Origin: an uncultured Myxococcales bacterium
GTDB taxonomy: Bacteria; Myxococcota_A; Polyangia; Palsa-1104; JAEUJZ01
Reading direction: 5' to 3'
NCBI GenBank assembly: GCA_937859535.1
Contig: CALLYL010000911.1
Location: forward strand, 1 to 33,073
Length of the DNA stretch: 33,073 nucleotides
The position numbers and the translations under genes were made by a program. Of this stretch, positions 4,111 through 22,188 are shown piece by piece. The notes under the pieces are model-generated. The model had not been told where the DNA came from, made no database searches, and saw only the letters and a program-made list of their open reading frames with translations. Within the stretch, counting starts at the first letter, position 1. Every line of letters begins with the position of its first letter.

Positions 4111-4208
4111 GTGTTGACGCAACAAGTCAATCCCAAGATCACGATTTCGGGCTTGACTTGTTGCGTGTTGACGCAACAAGTCAATACCAAGATCACGATT
4201 TCGGGCTT
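4111..4208 (+). repeat. In-frame 54-bp tandem duplication at the 5' end of the RsbR-like gene
   Basis: The segment beginning at 4111 (GTGTTGACGCAACAAGTCAA) is repeated from 4165. Over 44 aligned bases I see one mismatch. The period is 54 bp, exactly 18 codons, so the frame is kept and the protein gains a second LTQQVN.KITISG. The near identity implies a recent event or selection to keep both copies. Confidence 0.9.
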
Positions 4209-5268
4209 TGACATCGAGTGGGATCTGGAAAAAGGAATCAACCTTTGGGCCGGGTTCCCAACGCTCAGCATGTGGATCGGAACCACCACGGCGGGCATGA
4301 TGGCAGGCTTTCAGCGCATGGTCGGAGAGGACCGATTCAACCTATGTATGCAGATCGGCGGATTGAATAGCGTTGAAGGGGACTGGTCAGTGATTGCGAG
4401 TCGGCCCACCTTCGAAGAAGGGCTCCAGCTCCTCTCGGACATCGCCTGGCCAGCAGGTTGGGGACGGTGGCAGCTTGTCTCTCTCGATCGAGACAAGAAG
4501 GAAGCGCGCTACCGTGCCACCAACAGTTGGGAAGGTCTGTATCAGCGTGCTCTTGGCGTTTGCTGGGGCAGCGGAATGATCGCAGGGAAGTTCGCCGGGT
4601 TCACGAGTCGAGTCTTCGGAACGCCCTGCTGGTCTGAGCAGGTTCGGTTTATGGCGCGTGGCGATGAGTATGACGAGTTCGTCGTGACGGAGTCTGCATG
4701 GACTCCGCAGCAGCGACTTGATCGACTCCTCCATGAGGGAAAAGCCAGCAACGTGGACCTGGTGGTGGCTCTGCAGAAGCTACAGCACGAGGTACAGGAG
4801 CGCGAGCGCACCGAACGCGAACTACGTGACAAGCTCGATTTGATTCGTCGGCAAGAAGAGGCGCTGCGGACACTGGCTGTGCCGATCGTGCAGGTCTGGG
4901 ACGGAGTGCTGATGGTTCCGCTCATGGGCTCGTTGGACTCCGAGCGAGCGGGTGACGTGATGGAGCGGCTGCTGCAAGAGATTGTCAGCGCCCGCGCCCG
5001 ATTCGCCATCCTCGACCTGACTGCGGTGGATCACGTGGATACCAGTACAGCCAACCATCTGGTGCGAATTGTGCGTGCGGTCGATCTGCTGGGGGCACGG
5101 GTGGTCGTTACAGGAATCCGGTCCGCCGTTGCGCAAGCCATGGTGGGCTTGGGTATGGATTTGTCGTCGATGACCACCTTGCGCAACTTGCAGGAAGGTC
5201 TGCGAGCTTGCATGCGATGGCGCGCAGAAGAAGAGGCCACTTCGCACACCAGCAAGTTCGGTAGGTAG
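4111..5268 (+). CDS. RsbR-like stressosome/STAS-domain regulator with a V4R-like N-terminal sensor region
   Basis: A 385-residue protein. Residues about 255-370 form a STAS domain of RsbR type: VQVWDGVLMVPLMGSLDSER, FAILDLTAVDHVDTSTANHL with the likely phosphorylatable Thr311, then VVVTGIRSAVAQAMVGLGMD. A charged coiled coil (about 215-255) precedes it. In the N-terminal half, about 145-195 (GVCWGSGMIAGKFAG, CWSEQVRFMARGDEYDEFVV) resembles the end of a 4-vinyl-reductase/heme-NO-binding-like sensor domain; this part is less certain. RsbR-type proteins build stressosomes with RsbS and RsbT partners, none of which is seen here. The start is ambiguous. GTG at 4111 sits only 3 bases from AGGAGG; the adjacent TTG at 4114 has better spacing; and an in-frame GTG at 4165 opens the second copy of a 5' duplication. 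The first 18 codons are therefore a repeat of the next 18. Confidence 0.8.
   Translation: MLTQQVNPKITISGLTCCVLTQQVNTKITISGFDIEWDLEKGINLWAGFPTLSMWIGTTTAGMMAGFQRMVGEDRFNLCMQIGGLNSVEGDWSVIASRPTFEEGLQLLSDIAWPAGWGRWQLVSLDRDKKEARYRATNSWEGLYQRALGVCWGSGMIAGKFAGFTSRVFGTPCWSEQVRFMARGDEYDEFVVTESAWTPQQRLDRLLHEGKASNVDLVVALQKLQHEVQERERTERELRDKLDLIRRQEEALRTLAVPIVQVWDGVLMVPLMGSLDSERAGDVMERLLQEIVSARARFAILDLTAVDHVDTSTANHLVRIVRAVDLLGARVVVTGIRSAVAQAMVGLGMDLSSMTTLRNLQEGLRACMRWRAEEEATSHTSKFGR
4153..4184. repeat. Perfect 14-bp inverted repeat (hairpin) at the junction of the duplication
   Basis: TTGACTTGTTGCGT at 4153-4166 is the exact complement of ACGCAACAAGTCAA at 4171-4184, separated by GTTG. The RNA could form a 14-bp stem with a 4-base loop just inside the coding region and across the second GTG start at 4165. 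There is no T-tract after it, so it is not a terminator. It could affect translation or be the footprint of a hairpin-templated copying error. Confidence 0.85.
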
Positions 5269-6191: not shown

Positions 6192-6539
6192 ATGCAGATG
6201 ATGCGAACGTTTCTGTGGCTTCTGTGCGGGGTGGTTTGCGTCACCATGGGCTGTAGCACGCCAGCACAGCCGGAGTCGTACGCAGTAGGAACCAGGCTTG
6301 GCGGCGGCTCGCTGTTATTCGGCGCAGATTCATGCACGTACACCGCTGCGCCTTCCGTTCCGTGTGCATCGTTGCCCATGGGCGCCCATGGGCAGTTCCT
6401 TGGCCACTCCACGCTTCCTCATCACAGACAACCTGGCAAGAGACTTGCACTGGCAGGGCGAGTCCGTTCAGATTTCCGCCACGAAAGGCATTCCCGATGC
6501 AGACCTCGCCCCGCGAAACGGTTACCTTCAAGGAACTAG
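6192..6539 (+). CDS. Candidate small lipoprotein or lipoprotein remnant
   Basis: From ATG 6192 (GAAAGG just upstream; further ATGs at 6198 and 6201) the frame begins with a convincing lipoprotein signal: MMRTFLWLLCGVVCV followed by lipobox TMGC. About 35 plausible residues come next. The remaining half then runs through the palindromic repeats at 6373-6394 and the sigma-54 element at 6434-6449, and overlaps the start of the CHAT gene at 6497 in another frame, where the translation becomes Arg/His-rich and unlike coding sequence. I think this is either the 5' fragment of a decayed lipoprotein gene later overwritten by control sequence, or a real short lipoprotein with a junk tail. A chance ORF remains possible. 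Confidence 0.35.
   Translation: MQMMRTFLWLLCGVVCVTMGCSTPAQPESYAVGTRLGGGSLLFGADSCTYTAAPSVPCASLPMGAHGQFLGHSTLPHHRQPGKRLALAGRVRSDFRHERHSRCRPRPAKRLPSRN
6373..6394. promoter_or_regulatory. Double palindromic enhancer-like site (two GCCCATGGGC, 10 bp apart)
   Basis: Two perfect GCCCATGGGC decamers at 6374-6383 and 6384-6393 abut head to tail, and with one flanking base on each side the 22 bp form a single perfect palindrome. The 10-bp period puts both sites on the same helix face. The centre lies about 64 bp upstream of the -12 element of the sigma-54 promoter at 6434-6449, a usual distance for an activator site. Confidence 0.75.
6434..6449 (+). promoter_or_regulatory. Sigma-54 promoter of the CHAT / FHA-activator / kinase unit
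   Basis: TGGCAAGAGACTTGCA matches the -24/-12 consensus TGGCACGNNNNTTGCW at all but one fixed base, with GG and GC exactly 10 bases apart. A transcript starting about 12 bases downstream would have a leader of roughly 35-40 bases before the ATG at 6497, with AAAGG in place. Confidence 0.8.
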
Positions 6540-8377
6540 CCCGTGTTCTTCAGCACTGGCTCGATCGGCAAGCCCAGACGCTCGATGTTCGTGAGCGCGA
6601 ACAACTCTTCGCCCATCTGGCGGCTCGGCTAGCGGTGATCGATGCGCGGCTGCAACAGGGGGATTCGCTTGAATCGGAGCGGCTCCTGCGGGCGCTGCTC
6701 ATCGACCTGAAGCTGCTCGGAGAGACTCGTTCGGCGTCACCGGGTGATGGCACGGACCCGTCGCGTGGAGAGCCGATGGGAAACACCCGCATACCGCTGC
6801 AAACCGGTGGCAGACTCTCCTCTCTGCTCGACAAGTTCAGACCGCGCAAACAGGCGACACCCCTTTGTACGTATCCGACCGTTTTGGCCCCGAGATCGGT
6901 GCGCCCACAAACTGTCTTTTCGGTGGAGGTTGCGGCACAGGCGCAGACGAGCGTCGATGGGTCACAGAAAGTCTCGTTTGAGAGGGTGCATGAGGACTCT
7001 CCGGTGGATGTGGAGCTGTCTCTACAACTGCCTACCGGTTCGGCCCTGCAAGCGCGTGGGCCGCTGTCCGCTGTCCTCCGCATCTGTCCGGATGGTCGCG
7101 CCGCAAAAGTCGTGTTCGAGCTGTATGCGAGCGAAGTTGGTTCACATTCCCTTGCCGTGGTGTTCCGTTACGATGGGGTGGAGCGCTTCCGAATGAAGCA
7201 CGTCATCCATGTGACAGAGGTGCTGTGGCCACAGCCTCTGCCAGCACCGCAGATTGCGCTTTCGTTGGGAATCGATTCCTCGCGTTCATTCGTTGGCTTG
7301 ATCTTGAGTCTGACGGAGCAGGATCGCAGCAGCGACCAGCGACACTTCGATGTTGTACTGAGCGGACCAGCCTGGGGTGGGCGGGCGCTGCGCGAACGCA
7401 TGAGTCTTCCGGCGGACGCAAACGAGCTTGTGACCAAGCTGTGCCGGGACATGGAACGTGCGTTGCGTGTCGGTGAATGGACATCGCGTGAGAACTCGAT
7501 GCAAGGCATTGGGTCCGACCTGGCCAATCGAATCCTGCCGAGGAGCCTTCAAGATGCGCTGCTCGCGGAGAGGTGGCTGGCAGGCACTCCTCTTCATATT
7601 GAGAGTGAAGATGTCTGGATTCCGTGGGAAGCGCTGTTTCTGGGTTCGCCAATCGGAACACGAGGAGGTCGAAGCGGCTTCTTTATGGGCGAGCACTTCG
7701 CGGTGACACGTTGGCTGCGGACCGGGAGTGCGCGAGAACAAGTGGGTGGGGCTTCGGCGGTGATGGTCGCACCGACAAACTCAGGTCTTTCGGTCGGTAT
7801 GGAACGTGCGGTCCTCGCGGAAGTCACGGGTCAAGCACCGCTTGATTTGGCGGACCTATCCGAGGTGCAGGGATGTCTGCGCGGGAATCCACGGGCCCAG
7901 GTGCTGCACTTCGCTTGCCACGGCCAGAGCAAAGCCGATGCCGCAATCGGCGAGGCGCTCATTCTCCAAGATGGAGAGCTACATGCGACCGACATTCCGC
8001 TCGCAAATCCCGGTGAACTTGGGAGCTTGGAGGGAACCCTGGTATTCCTGAATGCTTGCCAGGCAGGGATTGAGCAGCGTGGTCTGTGGCGTCACGGTGG
8101 CTGGGCATCCAAGCTGCTCGATGCTGGTGCCGGTGCGGTGGTGGCTCCTTCCTGGACAGTGACAGATGCGGGCGCGATGGGATTTGCTGAGCATTTCTAT
8201 CGCAACGCCAAGAGAGGGATGAGCCTAAGCGAAGCGGCTCGGCAGGCCCGGCGGGCCATTGCGCATACTGGCAATCTCGATCGGATTGGCTATGCGCTCT
8301 ATGCCGCACCGACGGCCATCGCGTGCTTTGAAACAGAGTCGGTGCACAGTGGCGACGCGACCGGCTCTCAGGTTTGA
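6497..8377 (+). CDS. CHAT-domain (caspase-like) peptidase with a large N-terminal extension
   Basis: A 626-residue protein. The C-terminal 240 residues form a CHAT domain, a clan CD cysteine peptidase related to caspases and separase. The catalytic His475 lies in QVLHFACHGQSK and Cys521 in TLVFLNACQAG; the upstream IPWEALF (about 375-381) and downstream GAGAVVAPSWTVTD are also typical. Residues 1-75 are helical and charged, about 80-125 a linker, and about 130-245 a beta-rich region of unknown family that may bind a partner. I start at ATG 6497 because AAAGG lies 8 bases upstream and it follows a sigma-54 promoter; the frame is open earlier, but that segment is promoter DNA. It is the first gene of a unit that continues, after 65 bp, into an FHA activator and a kinase. 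The substrate is unknown; CHAT enzymes often cleave a neighbour-encoded partner. Confidence 0.9.
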   Translation: MQTSPRETVTFKELARVLQHWLDRQAQTLDVREREQLFAHLAARLAVIDARLQQGDSLESERLLRALLIDLKLLGETRSASPGDGTDPSRGEPMGNTRIPLQTGGRLSSLLDKFRPRKQATPLCTYPTVLAPRSVRPQTVFSVEVAAQAQTSVDGSQKVSFERVHEDSPVDVELSLQLPTGSALQARGPLSAVLRICPDGRAAKVVFELYASEVGSHSLAVVFRYDGVERFRMKHVIHVTEVLWPQPLPAPQIALSLGIDSSRSFVGLILSLTEQDRSSDQRHFDVVLSGPAWGGRALRERMSLPADANELVTKLCRDMERALRVGEWTSRENSMQGIGSDLANRILPRSLQDALLAERWLAGTPLHIESEDVWIPWEALFLGSPIGTRGGRSGFFMGEHFAVTRWLRTGSAREQVGGASAVMVAPTNSGLSVGMERAVLAEVTGQAPLDLADLSEVQGCLRGNPRAQVLHFACHGQSKADAAIGEALILQDGELHATDIPLANPGELGSLEGTLVFLNACQAGIEQRGLWRHGGWASKLLDAGAGAVVAPSWTVTDAGAMGFAEHFYRNAKRGMSLSEAARQARRAIAHTGNLDRIGYALYAAPTAIACFETESVHSGDATGSQV

Positions 8378-8442: not shown

Positions 8443-9825
8443 ATGAGCGACACAGAGCAGATCGTCCAAGACGAAACCGAGGAAGAAGAGCCGCTGCGTG
8501 CCGAGCTACGATTGGTCTTTGTGGGCCCGAACAAGATCCAAGAGGCACCGCCGTATCGCCTTGCGGATCAGAAGAAGCTCACGATTGGTCGCAAGGACAG
8601 CAGTGATATCTGGCTACAGGATGCCACTGCATCGGAACAACATGCGAGCATCTGGCCGACGCTGACATCGCAAGGCTGGCAGGTCGAACTACGAGACAGT
8701 GCCAGCAGCAACGGAACCACTGTCAACGGTCAGAAGATCAAGTCTATCCATCTGCAAGACGGCGATGTGATTCGCATCGGGAGTTCCTTTCTGATCTATC
8801 GCGTTCACCGCATTCCCAACGAAGATGCAAAGATTCCCGAGCTGATCGGTTGCTCGCCGCCGATTCGACTGCTGCGCAAGCAGATCGAGGTGTTCGCACC
8901 GACTTCGGCTGTGATTTTGCTTCAGGGCGAAAGCGGTGTCGGCAAGGAAGTCGCCGCACAAGCGATTCACACCTTGAGCAAGCGGCGCGGTCCGCTGGTG
9001 CCAATCAACTGCGCCACGATCGAGAAATCACTCGCAGACAGCACTCTGTTTGGACACGTCAAGGGGGCCTTCACTGGCGCAGTCGATGATCACGTAGGAC
9101 TCTTCCAGCGCTCGGCCCAAGGAACCCTGTTTCTCGATGAAGTGGGTGAGCTAGAGAAGCCTGTGCAGTCGAAGTTTCTCCGTGCCGTGGATACGCTGAG
9201 GTTTGTGCGCCTCGGATCCTCTACCGAAGTCAAAACCGATGCGCGGGTTCTTGCGGCAACCAAGGTCGATCTCCAGCAAGCCGTGCATCAGGATCGCTTC
9301 CGCGATGACCTGTTCTATCGACTGTCGGGCGTGCGATTGCACATTCCGCCTTTGCGGGAACGAAAGGAAGACATCCTGCTGCTCGTGCAGCACTTTATCC
9401 AAAGGAAAAGCCCGGCAATGGTCATCACCACTGCGTTGGCAGAGGCACTGCTGGACTACTCGTTCCCAGGCAACATCCGCGAGCTGAAGAGCTTGATCGA
9501 CAAAGGGCTCGCTGTCGCTGCTAGCCGGAATTCGGGTGAGATCAAGCTCTCCTATTGTCGAGATCAGCTCGAAGAGAAAGACACCTCACTGCGCGGAGTT
9601 CGCGATACGTCCATGCTTCACGACGTGGTGCCAAAGCCCGCAGAAGATCGTGCAGCAGAACCGGTTCGAGGTCGTCCCACCCGCGAAGAGCTAGGGTCGA
9701 TTCTGACACGCTGCGATTGGAAGATTCTGAGAGTATCCAAGCTCACGCAGTGGGATCGTCATACGATTCGACGCTGGATGAAGTATTACGAGCTGACGCC
9801 GCCGAGCCCCACATCTGCCCCTTGA
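8443..9825 (+). CDS. FHA-domain sigma-54 activator (enhancer-binding protein 1)
   Basis: A 460-residue transcription activator in which the usual receiver is replaced by a phosphothreonine-binding FHA domain (about 22-122; Gly49-Arg50, Ser64-x2-His67, Asn90-Gly91). The AAA+ domain (about 135-375) has Walker A GESGVGKE (162-169), an intact GAFTGA loop (208-213), Walker B LFLDEVGE and RDDLFYRLSGV. The C-terminal helix-turn-helix (about 425-450) contains WDRHTIRRWMKYY. In FHA activators the trigger is expected to be Ser/Thr phosphorylation rather than a histidine kinase, and the next gene, 39 bp downstream, is a Ser/Thr kinase. The gene lies in a unit driven by a sigma-54 promoter with palindromic upstream sites, so it may activate its own operon. 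The start is supported by AAGGAG upstream. Confidence 0.93.
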   Translation: MSDTEQIVQDETEEEEPLRAELRLVFVGPNKIQEAPPYRLADQKKLTIGRKDSSDIWLQDATASEQHASIWPTLTSQGWQVELRDSASSNGTTVNGQKIKSIHLQDGDVIRIGSSFLIYRVHRIPNEDAKIPELIGCSPPIRLLRKQIEVFAPTSAVILLQGESGVGKEVAAQAIHTLSKRRGPLVPINCATIEKSLADSTLFGHVKGAFTGAVDDHVGLFQRSAQGTLFLDEVGELEKPVQSKFLRAVDTLRFVRLGSSTEVKTDARVLAATKVDLQQAVHQDRFRDDLFYRLSGVRLHIPPLRERKEDILLLVQHFIQRKSPAMVITTALAEALLDYSFPGNIRELKSLIDKGLAVAASRNSGEIKLSYCRDQLEEKDTSLRGVRDTSMLHDVVPKPAEDRAAEPVRGRPTREELGSILTRCDWKILRVSKLTQWDRHTIRRWMKYYELTPPSPTSAP

Positions 9826-9864: not shown

Positions 9865-11829
9865 ATGAGCAAGACCAAGCCACCTGACGACGAGAAAGAG
9901 GACGAGGCGGATGGTCATTCCTCCACCGATGGGAAGTCCGTTTCGGCAAACGACAAGAAATCGGATGATGCGCTGGACGAGGATGATGGCCCTGGACGGG
10001 CGGGCCAACAGGTCGACAAGTACCGTTTGGAGCGCCGGCTTGGGGCTGGCGGAATGGCGGAAGTCTATGTCGCGGTCCGCACCGATCATATTCAAAATCG
10101 CGTCGCGCTGAAGCTGTTGCACTCTTACTTCGCGAGTCGCCAGGATTACCGTCGTCGCTTCGAGCAAGAAGCACTCATCTTGTCTACGCTCAACCATCCT
10201 GGAATCGTCAAGATCGTAGACTACGGTGTATTGCCAAGCGGAGAGTCCTTTTTGGCAATGGAATACCTCGAAGGAACGTCACTGGCCGAGCGGCTGGCTC
10301 AAAGTCCGGGTCATCGACTTCCCATCGATGCCGCAGTACACCTCGGTTATCAGGTCGCTTGCGCGTTGGCCAGCGCGCATACGCGGGGCGTGGTTCATCG
10401 CGATCTCAAACCCAGCAACCTGATGATCGTTCCCGACTCTGCGGCGTGGGCGGGGGAGCGTGTCAAAATTGTCGATTTTGGCATCGCTCGGACCATCGAA
10501 GCGAGTGGTGAAGCGCTGACCGAGGTCGGCAAGATCATCGGCACCATGCGCTACATGTCACCGGAGCAGTTGCGCGGTGAAAAGGTGGATGGCTCTACCG
10601 ATGTCTTTGCGCTCGGTCTGGTCCTGTTTGAAATGATTGCCGGTCGGCCCGCGTTCACTGGCAATGGCTCGGTCCTCAAAGATCAAATCTTGCGGGAAGA
10701 GGCACCCAATCTGCGCACGGTGCAACACGAAGTGCCAAGACCGCTGAGCGATCTGGTGCGGCGCATGCTTGCCAAGGTGGCGACCGACCGACCGACCATG
10801 ACCCAGCTTGAGCAGGAGTTGTCGCAACTGTCGCTGACTGGTTCACGTAGCGCGATTCGCACCGTCAGTCCATCGCGTCTCTTTCCGCTTTCCCGCACGA
10901 CGCGCACGGTGATCGCCGTCCTCCTTGGATGCGTCGTGTCCGTTGGGATTGGCGTGGCGGTAGTTCGATCACTGAAGCGGCCCGTTGAGCCTGCGACCTC
11001 CGTGGCCATCCCGGAGGCGGTCGTCCATTCAGCGAAGCCGCCCGTTGTGTCGGCGACCACCGTCCGTATCCCAGAGGGCGACATGCTGATGGGGAGCACT
11101 CCGGAGCAAGTGCAGGACGCTTATAGCCGCTGCCGGATCGAAATGAAGGACGCTCCAAAATGGTGTCGCCCAGACATGTTTGAGAACGAACAGCCCCAGC
11201 GCGCGGTTCACATCAGAGCCTTCCAAATGGATCGCTCCATCGCGAATACCGCAGACTTTGTGCGATTCCTTCACAGCGTTCGATCGCGACTACAGATTCG
11301 CCCAGATAGTCAGAGTGGCAAGCCGCGCTTTGTCGAACTGGAGGGTCAGATCCTGTACGACCTCCACAGTGTACGGGCAACGATTGTTTACAATGCTGAA
11401 AAATGGGAGTTCTCCGCTCTCCAGCGCACCGAGGAGCAGCCGGTCGAACAGGCGACCTGGTTTGGCGCTGAGCAGTATTGCCGGTCGAACGGCAAGCGTC
11501 TCATTACCGAAGTGGAGTGGGAGTACGTCGCCAAGCTGCTTGAGACCCCAGAAGGACGAGCCAAGCTACCGGGGCGGATTGATCTTCCGGCCGACATTCA
11601 GGAATGGGTTTGGGATGAGTACAAAGCCCTCTATCCGGATTGCCATCGGTGCACAAATCCGGTTGTAGGCAAGCCGCCCGATCAACGCAAAACAGAAGAC
11701 GCCAGCGTCGTCCGGGGCTGTGACCGCGCCCTAGAACCAGCCGTATGTTGCCGGAGTGCGGCGCGAACCAAGCGAGAGAATTCCGCTGCCGCAACCAAGC
11801 TCGGCTTCCGTTGCGTCAGCGATGGATGA
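9865..11829 (+). CDS. Ser/Thr protein kinase fused to an FGE-sulfatase-like extracytoplasmic domain
   Basis: A 654-residue membrane kinase. An acidic, disordered leader (1-50) precedes a complete Hanks-type kinase domain (about 53-320): glycine loop GAGGMAEVY, Lys83, HRDLKPSN (178-185), DFG at 204-206 and MSPEQ. One transmembrane helix lies at about 349-367. The outer part (about 400-654) is a formylglycine-generating-enzyme/SUMF1-like fold, seen in VRIPEGDMLMGS, TEVEWEYVAK, IQEWVWDEY and the terminal KLGFRCVSDG. In kinase fusions this domain is usually taken as a ligand sensor; its catalytic competence is unclear. It is last in the unit CHAT - FHA activator - kinase and is the natural candidate to phosphorylate the FHA ligand. 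A second fusion of the same type lies at 25073-27064. Confidence 0.93.
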   Translation: MSKTKPPDDEKEDEADGHSSTDGKSVSANDKKSDDALDEDDGPGRAGQQVDKYRLERRLGAGGMAEVYVAVRTDHIQNRVALKLLHSYFASRQDYRRRFEQEALILSTLNHPGIVKIVDYGVLPSGESFLAMEYLEGTSLAERLAQSPGHRLPIDAAVHLGYQVACALASAHTRGVVHRDLKPSNLMIVPDSAAWAGERVKIVDFGIARTIEASGEALTEVGKIIGTMRYMSPEQLRGEKVDGSTDVFALGLVLFEMIAGRPAFTGNGSVLKDQILREEAPNLRTVQHEVPRPLSDLVRRMLAKVATDRPTMTQLEQELSQLSLTGSRSAIRTVSPSRLFPLSRTTRTVIAVLLGCVVSVGIGVAVVRSLKRPVEPATSVAIPEAVVHSAKPPVVSATTVRIPEGDMLMGSTPEQVQDAYSRCRIEMKDAPKWCRPDMFENEQPQRAVHIRAFQMDRSIANTADFVRFLHSVRSRLQIRPDSQSGKPRFVELEGQILYDLHSVRATIVYNAEKWEFSALQRTEEQPVEQATWFGAEQYCRSNGKRLITEVEWEYVAKLLETPEGRAKLPGRIDLPADIQEWVWDEYKALYPDCHRCTNPVVGKPPDQRKTEDASVVRGCDRALEPAVCCRSAARTKRENSAAATKLGFRCVSDG

Positions 11830-11879
11830 ACCCAGTTCGTCCACCCTCGCTGCGCTTTGGTGATTGCTTGGACAGGAAG

Positions 11880-12089
11880 CTAGCCACGGACCACGCCACT
11901 TGGTGGCGCTTCCTCTGTGTCTCCGCCACGAACAACACCGCTGGGCGGAGCCTCATCACCACCTGAGTGGAGCAGGGTGCGGCCCGTCTTGTCGCCACCA
12001 CGCTGCACGGGGCTCGGGGGCGGTTCCGGAATCGCTCGGCTCAGGTTGCGGGACGGAAGGGACGGGCTGTTCTGGGTCTGATTGTGCAT
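11880..12089 (-). CDS. Small Pro/Glu-rich protein with repeated EAPPSGVVRGG-type units
   Basis: A 69-residue protein. The start is very well supported: AGGAGGTG lies 5 bases before ATG 12089, and a near-perfect sigma-54 promoter lies just upstream on the same strand. After a Gln/Asn/Ser-rich N-terminus it has three related proline units: EPPPSPVQRGG, DEAPPSGVVRGG and EEAPPSGVVRG, the last at the C-terminus. There is no signal peptide, membrane helix or cysteine. The protein at 27096-27359 shows the same design (EEPPP... KRGG twice, ending in KRGG), and both sit directly after a kinase-FGE fusion gene. It may be a kinase substrate, a scaffold, a peptidase substrate or a peptide precursor; the sequence does not decide. 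It is convergent with the kinase gene. Confidence 0.75.
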   Translation of the reverse strand: MHNQTQNSPSLPSRNLSRAIPEPPPSPVQRGGDKTGRTLLHSGGDEAPPSGVVRGGDTEEAPPSGVVRG

Positions 12090-12116
12090 TGGAGCACCTC
12101 CTGACCCAATCGGTTT

Positions 12117-12132
12117 TGCAATCGTTGTGCCA
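12117..12132 (-). promoter_or_regulatory. Sigma-54 promoter of the small repeat protein
   Basis: The minus strand reads TGGCACAACGATTGCA, matching TGGCAC...TTGCA with exact GG-N10-GC spacing. The expected start site lies about 12 bases further along, just upstream of the Shine-Dalgarno at 12095-12102, leaving a short leader before ATG 12089. Confidence 0.82.
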
Positions 12133-12222
12133 ACTTAGGGGGCGCTGCGAGCTTCCTTGTTTCTTCCTTCGGGATCACGGCAAGTGGTGGGGCCAGTTCT
12201 CTGAATCTCCGTCGATCGCCGT

Positions 12223-12275
12223 GCTCATGGGCCGGCAAGGATGGCCCATGGGCAAACGGGTCTAGGCCCATGGGC
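12223..12275. promoter_or_regulatory. Cluster of three palindromic enhancer-like sites spaced 21-22 bp
   Basis: GCTCATGGGC (12223-12232, one base off) is followed by perfect GCCCATGGGC at 12244-12253 and 12266-12275. Start-to-start distances are 21 and 22 bp, about two helical turns, so all three would face the same side. The cluster is about 110-160 bp from the minus-strand sigma-54 promoter and about 260-310 bp from the plus-strand one, so it could serve both. Confidence 0.72.
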
Positions 12276-12340
12276 GTCAGCCGCTTCCCTTCCTTTACCG
12301 ACAGTTGTTCGCGCCGTTCTGCAAGTGCTGCACCCAAAAG

Positions 12341-12373
12341 CTGCCTTCCTTTTCATTTTCAATTGAAAGGCAG
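12341..12373. repeat. AT-rich inverted repeat between the enhancer-like clusters
   Basis: CTGCCTT (12341-12347) pairs with AAGGCAG (12367-12373), and a perfect 12-bp palindrome TTTCAATTGAAA sits inside at 12357-12368. It is an AT-rich island in GC-rich DNA and lies between activator sites and promoter, where DNA-bending proteins often act. I could not match an IHF consensus. Confidence 0.5.
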
Positions 12374-12376
12374 GCG

Positions 12377-12397
12377 CGCCATGGGTGCCCATGGGCA
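12377..12397. promoter_or_regulatory. Paired palindromic enhancer-like site
   Basis: A perfect GCCCATGGGC at 12387-12396 (with flanks TGCCCATGGGCA) is preceded 10 bp earlier by the imperfect copy CGCCATGGGT. This is the same 10-bp head-to-tail pairing seen at 6374/6384 and 24452/24462. It is about 150 bp upstream of the -12 element at 12543. Confidence 0.7.
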
Positions 12398-12529
12398 CGG
12401 CAGCTAGCACCACCTGTGTGGGGTTGTCTCTCAACCATCGGTAGGCAGGCCCATCGAATCAGTCTTGCCGTCGAGGTGAACCCACCCAGGGCGATCCGAC
12501 GCACTGGTTTTTCGTCGCCTAGCTCCAAC

Positions 12530-12545
12530 TGGCACATCGGTTGCT
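12530..12545 (+). promoter_or_regulatory. Sigma-54 promoter of the lipoprotein / pseudokinase / thioredoxin-like unit
   Basis: TGGCACATCGGTTGCT is an excellent -24/-12 match (TGGCAC and TTGCT, GG-N10-GC). It lies about 45 bases upstream of the TTG start at 12590, which has AAAGGAG at 12577-12583. Confidence 0.82.
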
Positions 12546-12589
12546 TCTGGTGCTGGTTGAACAGGAATTCCCCGACAAAGGAGCATGCC

Positions 12590-13381
12590 TTGCCTACCAA
12601 ACGAACTTTCTTTGTTTCGCTTCTGTTGCTGGGCCTTACCGAGCAGTCTGGCTTCGCACGAACCACGGTTCTTTTGACGGGCGTGCAGAGCAATGGTGTT
12701 GCAAGCGACCGCGTCGAACAAGCCATTGTGATGAGACTCAAGCGTTTGGGCGATACCGTGATCGTGACGCCGCGCTATCCCATCGGCAGCGAGTATGTCG
12801 GCTGCGATGAGTCGCGCTGCTTTGAACCGATCGCGTCCCGCGAAACGGCGGACTACTTCATCAGTGGAAGAGTCACCAGCTCCGAGCATGCTCGCCTTGC
12901 GCGCATTGCCATCTATTCCACGGCCCGCAAGGAAGTGATCGCCGAAGAAGTGGGCTGCGAAGACTGTCATGAAAAGGCGATTGTCGATCAGGCTGCAAGT
13001 CTGGCTACATCGCTGCTCGACAAAGCGGTGTCTCTGCCCGCACCGACACCAACGACAAGAGCGATTCCTGCTGCTACTGCACTGGTTGCTTCACCGTCAA
13101 ATGGTGGGCTCTGTCCCGCGTGTCCGGTCTGTGCAAGCTGTCCTGTCGCGTTGGGAAAGGAAGGCTTCCTCCCCCTTCCCACCTGGCGTCGGGCGCTCGC
13201 TGGTGTTCTGGGAGTCGTAGCCGGAGGTGCATTCTCTGTCGCCGTCACCGCAACCTGGGCACATGGGAAAGTCTCCTCTGATTTCAGTGGCCATTACAAC
13301 GGCAAGGCAGTGATGGGAGCCTTCTATCCCATCACCGCAGCGGCTCTCATCGGCCTGACCCTCACTCTGAAGCTTCCGTAA
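12590..13381 (+). CDS. Secreted or envelope protein with Cys-rich linker and two C-terminal membrane helices
   Basis: A 263-residue protein of no family I recognise. Translation from TTG 12590 is chosen because AAAGGAG lies 6 bases upstream and it yields a clean signal peptide (MPTKRTFFVSLLLLGL..., cleavage near Ala23). The periplasmic part (about 24-150) alternates strands and helices, with cysteines at 72, 77, 123 and 126. A Thr/Pro/Ala linker leads to the cysteine cluster CPACPVCASCP (175-185), and two hydrophobic helices follow (about 200-222 and 241-261). In overall shape it resembles myxobacterial envelope proteins that end in a repeat linker and a membrane hairpin. First gene of a five-gene unit; the cysteines fit with the thioredoxin-like protein at its end. 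Confidence 0.75.
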   Translation: MPTKRTFFVSLLLLGLTEQSGFARTTVLLTGVQSNGVASDRVEQAIVMRLKRLGDTVIVTPRYPIGSEYVGCDESRCFEPIASRETADYFISGRVTSSEHARLARIAIYSTARKEVIAEEVGCEDCHEKAIVDQAASLATSLLDKAVSLPAPTPTTRAIPAATALVASPSNGGLCPACPVCASCPVALGKEGFLPLPTWRRALAGVLGVVAGGAFSVAVTATWAHGKVSSDFSGHYNGKAVMGAFYPITAAALIGLTLTLKLP

Positions 13382-13396: not shown

Positions 13397-14110
13397 ATGA
13401 AAACCAACCTCTCTGTCAGTCTCCTTTTTACCAGTCTGTTGGGTGTCTCGGGCTGTCTTGAACCCTTCCCAGAAATGGAAGGTGCTGAGGATCTGGCGAT
13501 GCCCACGGATCTGGCCAAGGCCCAAGAGATCCCCTTGTCTGAGTTTAAGAGTGTCGGCGGGACCAATTGCGATCAAGCTGACGTTGCATGGAAGTGGATA
13601 GATGCGACCAAGTCGCTCACTGGGAACCTCACAGGCAAAGCTGTGTGCAGTACTCCAACGACGCAAGGCGCTAGCACTGAATCCAGTGCTTCGTGTATTA
13701 CACAGTGGGCACCCTTGCCAGCGGCGCTCAAAGGAGCAACGGCCTGGCTGTTGAGCTTTGAACCGACTTGGAAACCGGCGTCCTGGGCAACGGGCTTCCG
13801 GTTTGATGCCGTAGTGGTTTCTGTATATGGGGCCAATCAGCAGCTCATCGGTAGTTTTTCGAGCACCATTGCGAGCGGAAGTGCCTCGCTGAGTTGGGCT
13901 CAACAGCAACAGACCAAGGCCATCCCAGCGCCACCGAGTGTGGTCACGATTCCTATCTTGGGGCGAGAGACTTTGCCAGGTGTAAACCTAGACAAGAGCT
14001 TCATTCGAGTAACCCTCACGAGCGCCTGTTCCGCATCACTGGACAATCCTGCACCTGCCCCAGCGACCCTGGAGCTGAAGAACCTACGCCTGATCCCGAT
14101 GACCCCGTAG
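13397..14110 (+). CDS. Putative lipoprotein of unknown function
   Basis: A 237-residue protein beginning with a lipoprotein signal peptide (MKTNLSVSLLFTSLLGVSGC; lipobox VSGC, lipidated Cys20). The mature part has few charges and is rich in Ser, Thr, Ala and Trp, with predicted beta strands (LLSFEPTWKPASWATGF, FDAVVVSVYG, SFIRVTLTSACS), suggesting a beta-sandwich outside the cytoplasm. Cysteines at about 58, 83 and 99 and one near the C-terminus could form disulfides. It starts 15 bp after the previous gene, with GGAGTAGGAACC in front of the ATG. No named family is recognised. Its place between a membrane protein and a pseudokinase suggests it is part of an envelope sensing or structural complex. 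Confidence 0.78.
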   Translation: MKTNLSVSLLFTSLLGVSGCLEPFPEMEGAEDLAMPTDLAKAQEIPLSEFKSVGGTNCDQADVAWKWIDATKSLTGNLTGKAVCSTPTTQGASTESSASCITQWAPLPAALKGATAWLLSFEPTWKPASWATGFRFDAVVVSVYGANQQLIGSFSSTIASGSASLSWAQQQQTKAIPAPPSVVTIPILGRETLPGVNLDKSFIRVTLTSACSASLDNPAPAPATLELKNLRLIPMTP

Positions 14111-14147: not shown

Positions 14148-15737
14148 GTGAAGCCGCCCCCCCTTCCTAGCCCTGGAAAAGCGTCGCTCCCTGCTGTTGG
14201 AAACGCTGTCAACCGGCGCGTGGGGGCATTGCTTGCCGAAGGGTCGCTGTCTTGCGTGTATGAATTGCTGGAGTATCAATGCGCACCGATCACTCGTCCC
14301 TTGGTGCTCAAGCAGATCAAGTCTGCATTTGTTCATGATCCGCAGATTCGTGAGCAGCTCACGCTGCTGCGCGAGCGCCGGAGCGAGCTAATACATCCCA
14401 ACCTATGTGAGCGAATCGAAGTCCACATCGGTGAGCAAGACCTGTGGATCATCGAGCAGCGCGTTGAAGGACAGAGTCTGGCGACGATCCTCGAAGAGCG
14501 TGGACGGATGTCGTTGTCGGAGGCGCAGCAGGTCTGGCAGCAGATTGCAAAGGCGCTCCATTTTCTGCATCAGCAGGGACTTCGTCATACTGATTTGAAG
14601 CCGGGTCACGTGCTGCTTGCCAAGGTTGGAGAGGCGTACCAGGTCACCGTCATCGATGCGGGTCTTGCGCGACCTCTTGCAGACGGCCTCATCGGAACAC
14701 CATCGTACCTATCTCCCGAGCTTGTGCGTTCCGCGACACCGCGACCGACGGCCCGATCGGATATTTTCGCGTTTGGCTGTGTGGTGTACGAAATGCTGTT
14801 TCGCCAGCGTGCGTTTCCCGCGCAGACAGTCGCGGAACGGCGTGGCAACTTGAGCGCAGATCCTGGCCATCACTTTCTGACCGGAGAAGATCAGCCCAAG
14901 ACTGAAGCCGTGCGTAGTGCGCTGTTCTCTGCGCTCGAAGAGAGTCCGGAAAGACGTCCTGCAAAAATTTGTGAGCTCATCGCAAGATTGGATGCAGTCT
15001 TCGCCCCACCGGAATCAAATGCCGGTTCTGCGGCACCCACACCATCGCCACTGCCGGCAAGCTCGGGCGGGCATCGTGTGCTTCCTGCGGTTCGGGATGG
15101 AATCAGTCCTCCGCCAAGTGAATCGGGACAGCTTAGACCCCCCAATCCAAACATCCATCGGACCCCTGGTCCACGACCTACGATTCGGTCACGCGTGCCC
15201 TATGTGATGGCCTCGTTGGCACTCATTGTTGGCCTCAGCCTGGGCGTAAAGGCTTGGCTTCCCGACAGTGAATCGCATTCCGGAGTCATCACTGATTTTG
15301 CCGCTGCATCCGACCTTGTCGATTTGGGTGCGTCCCCGAGCGTGCTCGATCTGCCTGCGCCCCTCATCGAACGGATCGCGGATTCTGGTCTCGATGGATC
15401 TGCCGTGGGGAATCTCGAATCTCGTAGACCGCATGGTCACAAAGAAGAGCCACGTCCCGAACCACATCCGAACAGACCCAAACTGCACTGCGCCCTGCGC
15501 GGCACGTCAGGAATTGAAAAAAAGGATCTCGAGGCGATCCGGCGCTGCTGTGAAAAGCTCCCATCATCGCCGTCAAGTCGCTATTGCGTGGTTCTCAAAC
15601 AGTTGCTCAAGGAGCTGGTGCCCCAAGAGTTTCCGAACGCCTTCTTGGAAAGTCACAAGTCTTTCTTTGAGTGCGTCCGTACGGTGGAGCTGTTCGGAAG
15701 CATCCCCAAAAAAGGAGTGAGCTATGTCTGTGAGTAG
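14148..15737 (+). CDS. Probable Ser/Thr pseudokinase with one transmembrane helix
   Basis: A 529-residue protein with a Hanks-type kinase fold (about 22-285) whose key motifs are altered. The glycine loop reads AEGSLSCVY; Lys55 is kept (LVLKQI). HRD is HTD (147-149), the metal-binding Asn is His154 (DLKPGH instead of DLKPxN), and DFG is DAG (170-172). YLSPE and DIFAFGCVVYEML are normal. Loss of the Asn and of the DFG phenylalanine makes normal catalysis doubtful, so I call it a probable pseudokinase acting as a scaffold or regulator. A Pro/Ser-rich linker leads to a membrane helix (about 352-368) and a 160-residue outer part with cysteines near the C-terminus (RCCEKL, YCVV). It starts 37 bp after the lipoprotein gene (GAGGAGG upstream) and overlaps the next gene by 14 bp, indicating translational coupling. 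Confidence 0.88.
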   Translation: MKPPPLPSPGKASLPAVGNAVNRRVGALLAEGSLSCVYELLEYQCAPITRPLVLKQIKSAFVHDPQIREQLTLLRERRSELIHPNLCERIEVHIGEQDLWIIEQRVEGQSLATILEERGRMSLSEAQQVWQQIAKALHFLHQQGLRHTDLKPGHVLLAKVGEAYQVTVIDAGLARPLADGLIGTPSYLSPELVRSATPRPTARSDIFAFGCVVYEMLFRQRAFPAQTVAERRGNLSADPGHHFLTGEDQPKTEAVRSALFSALEESPERRPAKICELIARLDAVFAPPESNAGSAAPTPSPLPASSGGHRVLPAVRDGISPPPSESGQLRPPNPNIHRTPGPRPTIRSRVPYVMASLALIVGLSLGVKAWLPDSESHSGVITDFAAASDLVDLGASPSVLDLPAPLIERIADSGLDGSAVGNLESRRPHGHKEEPRPEPHPNRPKLHCALRGTSGIEKKDLEAIRRCCEKLPSSPSSRYCVVLKQLLKELVPQEFPNAFLESHKSFFECVRTVELFGSIPKKGVSYVCE

Positions 15738-16500
15738 TCTGTTTGCCCACCTAAAGGCTGCATCAAAACGCAGCGTTCGGAGGTCTGCTTGGCGAGCTGC
15801 GGCCTATGCTGTGCTCGCGCTGCCTAGTCTTAGCGGCTGTGTCTCACTCGACGAGTATCTGGCGATTCAGAACGATGTAAGAAGGCTGGAAAGACGCCTT
15901 GATGCGGTGGAAAAAAGGGCCGAAGACAGCAGTACCAACATTCGCTCGATCGTCTTGCGAGCGTTTTGTCCATCCGTGATTGGGGAGCTCATTCGCAAGG
16001 TCAAAAAAGTCTGCCAAAAAGAGGGGATCTGCATCGGAGAGTCGGTGAGCCTTGCGTTACTCAGCGTCGATCCAAGCAGCCGGGGGCACTTCCTGACACT
16101 GACCAAGACGCAGCCGCATGCGGTGATCTTTCTGCGCACCGATCAGGAAACGCTGTCTGATCTTCAGCGCAAGGAACTACGACATCTGCTCAAGCCGCCG
16201 TGGTTTGAACAGACACACTTCTTGATCGTGGCGAGTCCTGATCCACAAGAAAACGGCGATATGAACAACGGTGTTGCTCGACTCAAAAAGGTCGCGGCTG
16301 AGATCACGACGATGAAGTTCATCAACGAGGACAACGTTGAAAACTATGTCTCGCCCCCGGTGCCTCAAGAGAAAATTCTCAAGTGGGTATTTCCGTTTGT
16401 GAATCGCACCGAGCGCATTGACCCCAAAGATGCGCCCAAAAACTCTAACGAGACGCTCTATCGAAGCGTCTGGGTGTTCCGTGTGGACTGCGACACTTAA
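15724..16500 (+). CDS. Putative lipoprotein with coiled coil
   Basis: A 258-residue protein. A basic N-terminus (1-22) precedes a hydrophobic stretch and lipobox LSGC (Cys39). A short heptad-like coiled coil (about 45-75, DVRRLERRLDAVEKRAED) follows, then a mixed alpha/beta domain (about 80-215). The pattern around HAVIFLRTDQETLSD, HFLIVASPDPQENGDMNNGV and the following RLKKVAAEI recalls an OmpA-type peptidoglycan-binding domain, but not closely enough to name it. The first ATG overlaps the end of the pseudokinase gene by 14 bp (AAAGGAG lies in the end of that gene), so the two are likely translated together. Role inferred as an envelope partner of the pseudokinase. Confidence 0.78.
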   Translation: MSVSSLFAHLKAASKRSVRRSAWRAAAYAVLALPSLSGCVSLDEYLAIQNDVRRLERRLDAVEKRAEDSSTNIRSIVLRAFCPSVIGELIRKVKKVCQKEGICIGESVSLALLSVDPSSRGHFLTLTKTQPHAVIFLRTDQETLSDLQRKELRHLLKPPWFEQTHFLIVASPDPQENGDMNNGVARLKKVAAEITTMKFINEDNVENYVSPPVPQEKILKWVFPFVNRTERIDPKDAPKNSNETLYRSVWVFRVDCDT

Positions 16501-17071
16501 CTTCATTCTGTCTATGTCTCTGCTGGCTCCGTGTCTCGATGTCGGAGTGACACTGGAAAATCTCAAGACGGAGAGGACGGTTCTGAATCGTCCACTGCCG
16601 ATTCGGAAGTTGTCGAGATTCGATCCCCATGATCAGTCGTGGAGAGAGCAGTCCTTCGAGATCCGTCCCGGGCAGATTGTACTTCTGCACCTGTGGGCGG
16701 TGGAGTGCAAGCCATGCCTCGATGAGCTGAAGACGCTGACGCCTCTGCTCAATGGACTACGTGATGATCGACGTCTGCAAATTCTCTTTGTCACAGAGAC
16801 CCAGGACCGACAGGTGCTGACGAACTTCCTGCAAAACAATCAACAGGCACTTCCTGCGGTCCCGCACTATCAGATCAATCCGACCGAGTTACGGCGTAGC
16901 TTGGGTATCAGCGCGATGCCAATTACGTTGCTACTGGACTCGGACCTGACGGTTCGGCAGGCATTCCTGGGCCCACTGCACGGACGCCGCGAAGAGCTTC
17001 TTCATGCGATTGACCGGCTTGAAGCTCTGCGGTCTATGGCTCACCGCGATCGACAGCGCGAGTCTCACTGA
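16481..17071 (+). CDS. Thioredoxin-like (TlpA/ResA-type) protein
   Basis: About 196 residues from GTG 16481 (ATG 16514 is an alternative). A hydrophobic N-terminus (about 5-18) is probably a signal or anchor. The thioredoxin fold shows IVLLHLWAVECKPCLDEL with redox Cys76 and Cys79, and a cis-proline in the loop SAMPITLLLDSD (Pro147). TlpA/ResA proteins usually have Trp just before the first Cys; here it is Glu (ECKPC), an unusual active site likely to shift the redox potential. The start overlaps the preceding lipoprotein gene by 20 bp. These proteins reduce or isomerise disulfides outside the cytoplasm, and the unit encodes several Cys-containing exported proteins that could be clients. Last gene of the unit. 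Confidence 0.8.
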   Translation: MWTATLNFILSMSLLAPCLDVGVTLENLKTERTVLNRPLPIRKLSRFDPHDQSWREQSFEIRPGQIVLLHLWAVECKPCLDELKTLTPLLNGLRDDRRLQILFVTETQDRQVLTNFLQNNQQALPAVPHYQINPTELRRSLGISAMPITLLLDSDLTVRQAFLGPLHGRREELLHAIDRLEALRSMAHRDRQRESH

Positions 17072-17115: not shown

Positions 17116-17125
17116 GCCCATGGGC
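17116..17125. promoter_or_regulatory. Palindromic enhancer-like site GCCCATGGGC
   Basis: A perfect copy in the 124-bp gap between the thioredoxin-like gene and the FHA-kinase gene. Its centre is about 61 bp upstream of the -12 element of the sigma-54 promoter at 17168-17183. A small inverted repeat CTGCT-CA-AGCAG follows at 17127-17138. Confidence 0.72.
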
Positions 17126-17167: not shown

Positions 17168-17183
17168 TGGACTGCAACTTGCT
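17168..17183 (+). promoter_or_regulatory. Sigma-54 promoter directly before the FHA-kinase start codon
   Basis: TGGACTGCAACTTGCT has GG-N10-GC and CTTGCT. The -12 element is only 13 bases before ATG 17196, so the transcript would start at or next to the AUG, giving an essentially leaderless message. The GGGGGA at 17185-17190 would then lie upstream of the transcript. Confidence 0.68.
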
Positions 17184-19985: not shown

Positions 19986-20034
19986 ACGCAGGGTGGCCCA
20001 GTGAACTCCCAACAGAGTGAGCCAAGAGAGTGAC

Positions 20035-21954
20035 ATGGACAACGTAAAAGCTCTGCCCGTGATGAATGCCAATCTGGCGATCCGCTTCGAGTCCAACATT
20101 ACCTACGAATTGGAACAGGCGCAGGATCCCCACCAGGGATACATTGTGCCGAATCTCCTTGGACAGGGACGTTTTGCCAAGGTCTTTGGTGCCTGGCAGC
20201 GCAGTTCGGATCGCAACGTGCGTCGCGTTGCCATCAAGATTCTGCACGAGCATGTCGACTTGCGAGCAGAGGAACTCTCCCTTCAGGAAATCAAGCTGCT
20301 GAAGGATTTAAGTGCCACGGGCAATGAGAGCGTGATCTCTACCGTCGATATCATTCGGCTCGGACCGAGCGTGATGTGTGGCGGCTGTGGAAAACTCTAC
20401 CATCCACTGTGCCCGTCGTGCGGAAACGGCAAGTTGATTCGACATCAGCTTCGCAATCACGCCTATCCTGCGCTCAAATGTGAAAGTGAGCGTTGTAGCT
20501 TTACGCTGTCTGCGGAGCACATTGCTACACGCTACACCGAACTGCTGCGCGCTCCATCGAAGACCTGCTGCGCCAAGGGTCCGCATGCGCAACACGGAAC
20601 ACTGGTCAACTTCGTAGATCGTGAAGCCGTGGTGATGGAACTGCTCAACACCAAGCTCACCCAGTTTCACAGCCAGCGCAAGCGGGTCTTTGCTCGGTTG
20701 TGTGAACGGCACGGTCTGGTCGACCCCAGGATGTCATCGTTCCAGCCGGCGGTCTCGATTACGCCTGGCGACTCTCGTTCTGATCCAAAGGCCAGCAATC
20801 CACAACTCGACCTACTGCACCGCGTGGTACTTCTTGAAAAGATACGGGTGATCTGTCAGCTCTCGGAAGCAATTGCCTGGCTGCACGGTGAGAAGGGAAT
20901 TGTTCACAAAGACCTCGCTCCTGACAACATCATGGTGTCCTCACGTACCGCAGAAATCGACGAACATAAGGTCGGAGAGGAGGCCCATCATGAGCCGCTG
21001 ATGGATTCCCTGAACAACTATGCCACCCAGACGTCGTTTACGACCAAGGTGATCGATTTTGGCTTGGCAGATCAACATCAACTTTCGCGCAACTGGTACG
21101 AGGAACCGGCATCGTTTCTGTTTGCGGCGAATGAGAAGCTTCCGTATCTGTCCAGCGAGTCGCGCAATCGCAAGATCAAGCTCAACCAGCGGATCGAATT
21201 TGAGCCCAATGGATCGCGATTCCGCGTTCCGGATAACCTAATTCCGTCGAAAGCCGGCGAGCTGGCAATGATGAAGGGAGATATCCTTGCCGACGAACGC
21301 GATCCCCATCATCACTACTATGTGATGGTGCAGGAAATCATGGAAGAACCTGTGGGCAGCGGACAGTTCTGGGCCAAGTTCGAAGACAGCCCACCACCGC
21401 ACGCACATACCCGTCAGTATGATCTGACCCGGCCACTTGGGGAAGCGCACGACATCTATGCGCTCGGCGCGATTTTCTATTTCATCCTGACCGGCGAACA
21501 TACCGAGGTCGAGAAAATCGGCCACCTCGCTGGATCGCTTCAGTACACCCCCCAGCGACTCGATGCGCAATCGTTGCTGGTGAGTCAACCTCTTTACAAG
21601 ATTTGTCGCGACAGAATGCCCGAACCATTCTACCGCGATGAGCTCTTGATCCTCATTCTGCGGACCATGGTGCGTGGGCTCGACGATTCTTTTGTGAGCA
21701 GCCGGATCGAGCGCGGGCCCGAACCCTCCAAACGACTCCTTCAAGAAGCACGGCGGATCTATAATCAACTGCTCGCCGATATCCTGTCGGACCCGGTCTT
21801 GACCAGAGAGCGCGAGACAAGGAACCAGCTCGTTCAGCTACAGGACGTGCTTCGCCGCTCCAGTGACTACCAGCGCATCGCCTGGGGCGTTATCTGCGCG
21901 GGGATTCCCTTCTCTGCGGCAGCGGGCTGGATCCTCTCTCACTTCGGTCACTGA
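20035..21954 (+). CDS. Ser/Thr kinase with a zinc-ribbon-like insertion and a C-terminal membrane tail
   Basis: A 639-residue kinase of unusual build. The N-lobe has GQGRFAKVFGAW (43-54) and VAIKIL (Lys68). A cysteine-rich insertion of about 80 residues sits between N-lobe strands: CGGCGKLYHPLCPSCG (Cys115, 118, 126, 129) plus Cys149 and Cys154, most likely a zinc ribbon. The hinge VVMELL (199-204) is followed by a second insertion. The catalytic loop is HKDLAPDN (291-298), with Lys for Arg of HRD and Ala for the catalytic Lys of DLKP; VIDFG is at 339-343. A long activation/C-lobe region holds further insertions. The last 23 residues are hydrophobic, so the protein is probably tail-anchored with its kinase in the cytoplasm. 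ATG 20035 is chosen; GTG 20017 is possible. It follows the FHA-kinase gene by 49 bp. Confidence 0.85.
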   Translation: MDNVKALPVMNANLAIRFESNITYELEQAQDPHQGYIVPNLLGQGRFAKVFGAWQRSSDRNVRRVAIKILHEHVDLRAEELSLQEIKLLKDLSATGNESVISTVDIIRLGPSVMCGGCGKLYHPLCPSCGNGKLIRHQLRNHAYPALKCESERCSFTLSAEHIATRYTELLRAPSKTCCAKGPHAQHGTLVNFVDREAVVMELLNTKLTQFHSQRKRVFARLCERHGLVDPRMSSFQPAVSITPGDSRSDPKASNPQLDLLHRVVLLEKIRVICQLSEAIAWLHGEKGIVHKDLAPDNIMVSSRTAEIDEHKVGEEAHHEPLMDSLNNYATQTSFTTKVIDFGLADQHQLSRNWYEEPASFLFAANEKLPYLSSESRNRKIKLNQRIEFEPNGSRFRVPDNLIPSKAGELAMMKGDILADERDPHHHYYVMVQEIMEEPVGSGQFWAKFEDSPPPHAHTRQYDLTRPLGEAHDIYALGAIFYFILTGEHTEVEKIGHLAGSLQYTPQRLDAQSLLVSQPLYKICRDRMPEPFYRDELLILILRTMVRGLDDSFVSSRIERGPEPSKRLLQEARRIYNQLLADILSDPVLTRERETRNQLVQLQDVLRRSSDYQRIAWGVICAGIPFSAAAGWILSHFGH

Positions 21955-22014
21955 TCTGTTTGTCAACTTCCCTATCTGTTTGTCAACCTCCCTATCTGTT
22001 TCGCAAGCTCTCTA
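21955..22014 (+). repeat. Three tandem 20-bp repeats just after the kinase stop codon
   Basis: Units TCTGTTTGTCAACTTCCCTA (21955-21974), one mismatch at 21975-21994, and a more diverged copy TCTGTTTCGCAAGCTCTCTA (21995-22014) run head to tail from the base after the TGA. The near-integral two-turn period fits repeated protein-binding sites. They lie upstream of a palindromic site and a sigma-54 promoter. Confidence 0.8.
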
Positions 22015-22067: not shown

Positions 22068-22077
22068 GCCCATGGGC
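22068..22077. promoter_or_regulatory. Palindromic enhancer-like site GCCCATGGGC
   Basis: A perfect copy in the gap after the Zn-ribbon kinase gene, about 114 bp upstream of the -12 element at 22186. Confidence 0.72.
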
Positions 22078-22172: not shown

Positions 22173-22188
22173 TGGCGCAGCACTTGCA
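22173..22188 (+). promoter_or_regulatory. Sigma-54 promoter of the exported Pro-rich protein gene
   Basis: TGGCGCAGCACTTGCA: GG-N10-GC, with TGGC and TTGCA intact. The expected start site is near 22199, giving a leader of about 25 bases to GTG 22223 or about 78 to ATG 22277. Confidence 0.8.

Follow-up and report, generated by a model that had tools for sequence, protein, structure and literature searches.

Introduction

Enhancer-binding proteins with an FHA domain are reportedly associated with the sigma-54 regulon of Myxococcus xanthus, as treated by Jelsbak, Givskov and Kaiser in 2005. Myxobacteria-like genomes are rich in sigma-54 activators of the FHA type and in Ser/Thr kinases, and to our knowledge few of these proteins have known targets. 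Locally autoregulated clusters run by a bacterial enhancer-binding protein (bEBP) include PspF with psp and the activators of type VI secretion. A third set of related systems, the CHAT/EAD/FGE conflict systems of multicellular bacteria, is described in PMC8195603, PMC7159879 and PMC10907252, the last two of which never use the word 'sigma'. A literature search covering mostly sources outside subscription journals returned no FHA-bEBP regulon over a CHAT/kinase cluster.

The locus analyzed here shares features with all three. In common with the M. xanthus proteins, its activators carry FHA in the place of a receiver domain, followed by AAA+ and HTH domains, with predicted RpoN targets and Ser/Thr kinase signalling. 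As in the PspF and type VI cases, an activator lies beside its putative targets, which have sigma-54 promoters with upstream sites, and feedback is predicted. CHAT proteases, kinases, sensor-like FGE (CLec) domains and a probable SIR2-like target gene are shared with the conflict systems. The window, that is, the whole stretch of 33,073 nucleotides under study, comes from an uncultured Myxococcales bacterium. We consider its region 12095-12592 likely to be a two-way sigma-54 control region, one of seven in a cluster-encoded FHA-activator/RpoN regulon acting through the palindrome GCCCATGGGC.

Results

An earlier note on this DNA had read 12095-12592 as a two-way sigma-54 region with a 69-aa ORF on one side and a five-gene unit on the other, and this reading is well supported by the sequence, with ORFs present on both sides. 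The two -24/-12 promoter matches, TGGCACAACGATTGCA (12117-12132, minus strand) and TGGCACATCGGTTGCT (12530-12545, plus strand), lie where the note had placed them, face outward and rank first (18.2) and second (16.5) window-wide on a graded sigma-54 matrix with generic weights rather than weights trained on this genome. Both show the -24 GG and -12 GC elements (TGGCAC-N5-TTGC) of predicted RpoN promoters. The exact form of this string occurs only at 12118-12132 (minus) and 12530-12544 (plus) in the window, against 0.17 expected, and a count of two is reached in 2 of 100 whole-window shuffles. When 12095-12592 is shuffled 2000 times with dinucleotides preserved, any site scoring at least 16 appears in 5 shuffles and one per strand in none. 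The predicted starts at about 12106 and 12556 leave leaders of 17 nt to the 69-aa ORF and 34 nt to the TTG codon at 12590. No sigma-70-like promoter was found in 11800-12700.

The five palindromic sites noted between the boxes are all real and of CCATGGG type, but they are unequal. Three are perfect operator-like copies of GCCCATGGGC (12244-12253, 12266-12275 and 12387-12396); a fourth, GCTCATGGGC (12223-12232), matches the consensus at 9 of 10 positions; and the fifth, CGCCATGGGT (12377-12386), located 10 bp from the next site, is degenerate and keeps the CCATGGG core alone. Three occurrences of CCCATGGG are found together in 0 of 2000 shuffles of 12095-12592. Successive centre spacings are 21, 22, 111 and 10 bp, which places a left group of three sites at about -122, -142 and -164 from the minus start and a right group of two at -174 and -164 from the plus start. 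The spacings within the left (21/22 bp) and right (10 bp) groups equal whole helical turns and are those expected for an oligomeric activator that occupies the sites jointly. A single enhancer set serving both promoters, as previously proposed, is possible but not needed, because each promoter has its own phased site group on its side. The AT-rich inverted repeat at 12341-12373 exists, but the DNA bend suggested for it is unsupported and was rejected, since the single-stranded hairpin fold is no better than that of shuffles (z -0.86 and -1.42).

Across the window, GCCCATGGGC is the commonest 10-bp palindrome, with 10 copies versus 3 for the runner-up. When the exact 10-mer alone is counted, the 7.4 Mb genome (948 contigs) contains 21 copies, 10 of them inside the 33-kb window that makes up 0.45% of the sequence (binomial 1e-18); for comparison, the genome has 8 copies of the reversed control word. 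All 10 window copies are intergenic, where intergenic DNA accounts for 13.5% of the window by the gene calls made here. Each of the six window sigma-54 sites scoring at least 12.5 sits 55-149 bp downstream of a GCCCATGGGC copy; only 0.26 such sites are expected within 20-200 bp downstream of a palindrome under random shifts, and the 51 of 20000 shifts that equal the observed value are presumed to be near-zero shifts. The seven matches ranked next (10.8-12.4) include one palindrome-linked site, at 29416; a further such site, at 17168, is weak, with a score of 9.9. Palindromes are positioned at -72 to -174 from the predicted starts, consistent with enhancers lying roughly 80-200 bp upstream and with the usual 100-150 bp given in PMC7057263.

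The same arrangement of palindrome and sigma-54 box is found at six other regions. Tandem palindromes with 10-bp spacing (6374-6393) lie upstream of TGGCAAGAGACTTGCA (6434-6449, plus), which precedes an apparent operon of CHAT, activator 1 and STPK-FGE genes starting with the ATG at 6497. The palindrome at 17116-17125 is followed by a weak box at 17168-17183 (score 9.9) that leaves a 2-nt leader to the FHA-STPK gene at 17196, and this region may also serve the STPK gene at 20017. Upstream of a gene for a small exported-looking protein, a palindrome (22068-22077) precedes TGGCGCAGCACTTGCA (22173-22188, plus). A second tandem pair (24452/24462, spanning 24452-24471) separates activator 2 on the minus strand from a plus-strand operon, in which TGGCATAAGGCGTGCA (24532-24547, plus) is followed by the 24572 ORF, STPK-FGE 2 and an 87-aa ORF. 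The remaining palindromes are at 27497-27506, upstream of TGGCACAGGACTTGGA (27614-27629, plus), the 27671 ORF and the second CHAT gene, and at 29356-29365, upstream of a weaker box (29416-29431, score 11.1) and the STPK gene at 29459. The boxes at 29416 and 17168 are thus the weak ones among eight promoters. Taken together, the seven control regions span about 25 kb and make up a probable single regulon of up to 18 genes, a size that depends on operon extents inferred from spacing. Kinases are among its proposed members, as are two CHAT proteases, two small RG-repeat proteins and a sigma-54 activator of the FHA type. Because the palindrome and sigma-54 pattern recurs at these six regions and at some loci outside the window, 12095-12592 appears as one node of a cluster-wide regulon, and given the common DNA signature at all seven control regions the entire cluster probably turns on together.

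All 11 GCCCATGGGC copies outside the window were retrieved and scanned for sigma-54 boxes. Four have a box scoring at least 11, in the right orientation and within 220 bp: a box of 15.5 before an M4 thermolysin-like protease gene, with a second CCCATGGG 44 bp further (L067); one of 12.7 before an ORF of no assigned family that adjoins an STPK gene (L070); one of 11.5 before a SIR2-like gene, with a near-site 21 bp further (L066); and one of 11.1 at a contig edge (L072). The other seven copies have no sigma-54 box scoring at least 8 nearby, and several of these boxless copies fall within ORFs, as chance copies would. The regulon thus probably extends to the SIR2-like and thermolysin-like genes. 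A separate observation concerns a 44-residue segment, DADF..FV.DH.P.V..RF..G.DR.QKTNLLL, which forms the C-terminal end of the second CHAT protein (28376-29287, plus) and recurs near the start of a protein encoded elsewhere in the genome (L069:1336-2058, minus) close to a lone GCCCATGGGC. The two copies are 57% identical and have no Pfam match at E 0.05.

In the left direction, the minus promoter faces a 69-aa Pro/Gly/Arg-rich protein (11880-12089, minus) that contains the decapeptide EAPPSGVVRG twice. This ORF looks like a real protein gene. A strong Shine-Dalgarno sequence, AGGAGGTG, lies shortly upstream of its ATG, and 8 of 10 codon pairs differ between the two repeats with every change silent, which is good evidence that the ORF is translated and selected. 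Its codon score is intermediate between those of genes and of shadow frames; a score this high is reached by 8.6% of the shadow fragments. The protein has no family in Pfam, no convincing match in NCBIfam, PHROGs or viral contigs, and no convincing homologue in 19 genomes, where the best hit (E 0.00125) contains an in-frame stop, is of low complexity and overlaps other frames. An 87-aa ORF with two EEPPPP...KRGG units (27096-27359, plus) lies directly behind the second STPK-FGE gene and recalls the 69-aa ORF beside the first; the two give a BLASTP E of 0.11, so the likeness is by eye only. The 87-aa ORF has no known family in NCBIfam or PHROGs, and an Rfam scan of the window returned no family.

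In the right direction, the five same-strand ORFs described in the earlier note were confirmed. The unit starts with the TTG at 12590 and encodes an exported or membrane protein of 263 aa (12590-13381) with a TolB-N/PelC-like fold and two C-terminal helices in a low-confidence model (mean pLDDT 65.7 from a five-sequence alignment; PelC/TolB N-domain fold match E 3e-6 with low TM-scores). It is followed by a lipoprotein-like protein (13397-14110), a degenerate kinase recognized by Pfam and motif inspection with HTD..KPGH and with DAG replacing DFG (14148-15737), another lipoprotein-like protein (15724-16500) and a thioredoxin-like protein assigned by Pfam, whose start is uncertain (16418-17071). 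Both lipoprotein-like assignments were made by eye from the translations, which have no Pfam match. Beyond this unit, Pfam identifies a CHAT protease with the catalytic His and Cys in place, as in conflict systems (6497-8377, plus), and two kinases with a C-terminal FGE/CLec domain, STPK-FGE (9865-11829, plus) and STPK-FGE 2 (25073-27064, plus). Such content, together with the SIR2-like gene, resembles conflict or cell-death modules. Among the scanned cluster proteins, however, no NTPase core (STAND, MoxR/vWA or similar) is seen, the only AAA+ domains being those of the bEBPs, and PADLOC models give generic kinase, CHAT and RtcR-like matches with no coherent system; the cluster is for these reasons not assigned to such modules. 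Two repeats were also observed in the window. Short tandem repeats of the CTATCTGTTTGTCAACYTCC type (21950-22010) occur at and just past the end of the STPK gene at 20017-21954, and an ORF with a STAS domain opens with the near-duplicate stretch LTQQVNPKITISG / LTQQVNTKITISG (4111-4215), which suggests a DNA repeat ahead of the ORF's real start.

Two sigma-54 activators of FHA-AAA+-HTH type are encoded in the window, activator 1 at 8443-9825 (plus) and activator 2 at 22983-24392 (minus). In both, the FHA domain and the sigma-54 interaction AAA+ domain score above the Pfam cut-off, which is the architecture of a bEBP, and an HTH can be aligned, although Pfam scores it below the cut-off in activator 2 and does not report it in activator 1. 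The two proteins are 35% identical over 419 columns, HTH included. Activator 1 keeps the S/H/N residues of the FHA domain and an intact GAFTGA sigma-54 contact loop, which reads SAFTGA in the activator 2 alignment. The genome has one rpoN match (PF04552, 206.8 bits), and the DNA-binding regulators that Pfam recognizes among the scanned window proteins are all bEBPs.

Comparison of the intergenic region with relatives, as the earlier note had called for, gives a divided result. The cluster as such is absent from the two same-genus genomes searched; at E 1e-100, none of the 18 other genomes contains a match to the STPK-FGE gene. In related clusters of genomes G002 (locus L061) and G003 (L131), an STPK gene and an FHA-bEBP gene point away from each other, and the short stretch between them holds two outward sigma-54 boxes, at 11412 (minus, 16.6) and 11503 (plus, 14.8) in the former and at 13828 (minus, 16.0) and 13905 (plus, 13.5) in the latter. 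Outward pairs therefore recur, and with them predicted bidirectional sigma-54 control of such clusters, but the palindrome does not: GCCCATGGGC is absent from both clusters, where dyad and k-mer searches gave no convincing operator, so its conservation is unusable as support. Of the 12 non-self homologues found for the 263-aa protein, nine were examined. A box scoring at least 15 is located upstream of two and a weak one (10.1) upstream of another; one more has a box of 8.7 far off, and five have none scoring at least 8.5. The tandem operator CCATGGGYGCCCATGGG occurs in 4 of 317 genomes of the class (G000 and three others), and no regulon-like context is visible at the other three places in the short loci retrieved. 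In the G002 locus, about seven 11-bp tandem repeats of the GAATCGAACAG type (L061:6405-6480) were also observed between an FHA-bEBP gene and an STPK-FGE gene.

An attempt to demonstrate co-variation of HTH and operator gave no support for it. In 15 neighbourhoods picked by HTH similarity, TGTCCN4GGACA is found 30 times against 0.26 expected, in some cases with a CCCATGGG core. This palindrome is genome-wide in several genomes (1599 copies in G119, 1341 in G122, 85 in G112, 87 in G115, 6 in G106 and 9 in G000), so its local abundance proves nothing. Its abundance in the genus of G119 and G122 is itself an observation, the reversed control there occurring 4 and 2 times, respectively.

Discussion

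From these motifs, their rarity and positions, and the domain and gene content, all observed directly, we infer a binding protein, a phospho-signal, DNA looping, RpoN dependence and a function for the cluster. A signal would be sensed by kinases of the cluster, which would phosphorylate an enhancer-binding protein with an FHA domain, or a partner of that protein. The protein that then binds GCCCATGGGC would be activator 1, possibly in mixture with activator 2; some promoters carry two or three of these sites on one helix face, 10, 21 or 22 bp apart. The bound activator would loop and remodel the RNA polymerase-sigma54 waiting at the downstream -24/-12 boxes. At 12095-12592, the left sites would fire the 69-aa repeat protein, and the right sites the five-gene unit that runs from the 263-aa envelope protein to the thioredoxin-like protein. 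The same signal would turn on the operon of CHAT, activator 1 and STPK-FGE. Positive feedback is the natural reading of this operon, as activator 1 lies within it and a palindrome/sigma-54 pair heads it.

Binding of the palindrome by an FHA activator is proposed from the position of the sites, with activator 1 as the favoured candidate, and the identity of the cognate protein is where the main alternative arises. Activator 2, or a mixed hexamer of the two, may be what binds the palindromes, with activator 1 answering to a different signal or having a modulating role; the shared architecture and the identity that extends through the HTH allow this, and the tandem palindromes at 24452/24462 lie in activator 2's own upstream region. 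Its SAFTGA loop may however weaken the contact with sigma-54, and no high-scoring sigma-54 box faces its gene, whereas the operon of activator 1 has one, so that we hold this assignment to be possible though doubtful. That the palindromes are operators of some other regulator, such as a repressor encoded elsewhere, over RpoN promoters activated through other sites is unlikely: 10-bp palindromes suit several regulator classes and the related clusters lack this one, but the sites are far upstream and include phased tandems, where a repressor site would usually overlap the promoter, and all DNA-binding regulators that Pfam recognizes among the window proteins scanned are bEBPs.

The product of the minus promoter and the motifs themselves can also be read differently. 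This promoter could make a regulatory RNA with the 69-aa ORF untranslated, a proposal that draws on the intermediate codon score and on the missing homologues in databases and relatives. Set against the strong Shine-Dalgarno sequence, the silent divergence of the decapeptide repeat and the empty Rfam scan, it seems quite unlikely. Chance occurrence of consensus-like strings in GC-rich intergenic DNA is a concern in principle, as sigma-54 consensus matches arise in any genome and the boxes were picked as the best, but it is exceedingly improbable given the sigma-54 pair that no shuffle reproduced, the clustering of the palindrome and the proximity of all six top boxes to palindromes. An FHA-activator/RpoN regulon read through GCCCATGGGC is the reading we prefer.

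A further step from this regulon to a biological role is highly speculative and, in our estimate, very unlikely to be right as it stands. The regulon could be an inducible, self-amplifying protease alarm in which the recurring units of the small repeat proteins are CHAT cleavage substrates or released signal peptides. If so, FGE-sensor kinases would trigger the FHA activator, and one palindrome would fire all alarm targets, namely the CHAT proteases, the SIR2-like NAD enzyme, the envelope TolB-N-like protein and the two repeat proteins with (PP)...RG units. The bidirectional region would then co-produce substrate and envelope module.

On the regulatory level, a single 10-bp palindrome, readable in the sequence, yields a candidate map from activator to promoters across the cluster, and the same palindrome picks out the SIR2-like and M4 protease genes elsewhere in the genome. 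Because the target sites are readable in this way, the link from kinase signal through FHA activator to RpoN promoter is directly testable.

The cluster differs from each of the known systems that it recalls. The conflict systems have a STAND or MoxR/vWA core, neither of which is seen here among the scanned proteins, nor is a reverse transcriptase. Compared with PspF-psp and the type VI activators, it is set apart by its seven control regions within about 25 kb, one of them bidirectional and centrally placed, and by a probable phospho-Ser/Thr input. In contrast to the M. xanthus FHA-bEBPs, the two activators here are encoded within a cluster of kinase and CHAT genes whose own promoters repeatedly carry a private palindrome. 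FHA-bEBPs with sigma-54 regulons are already known, and what is new here is a further member with an unusually readable operator.
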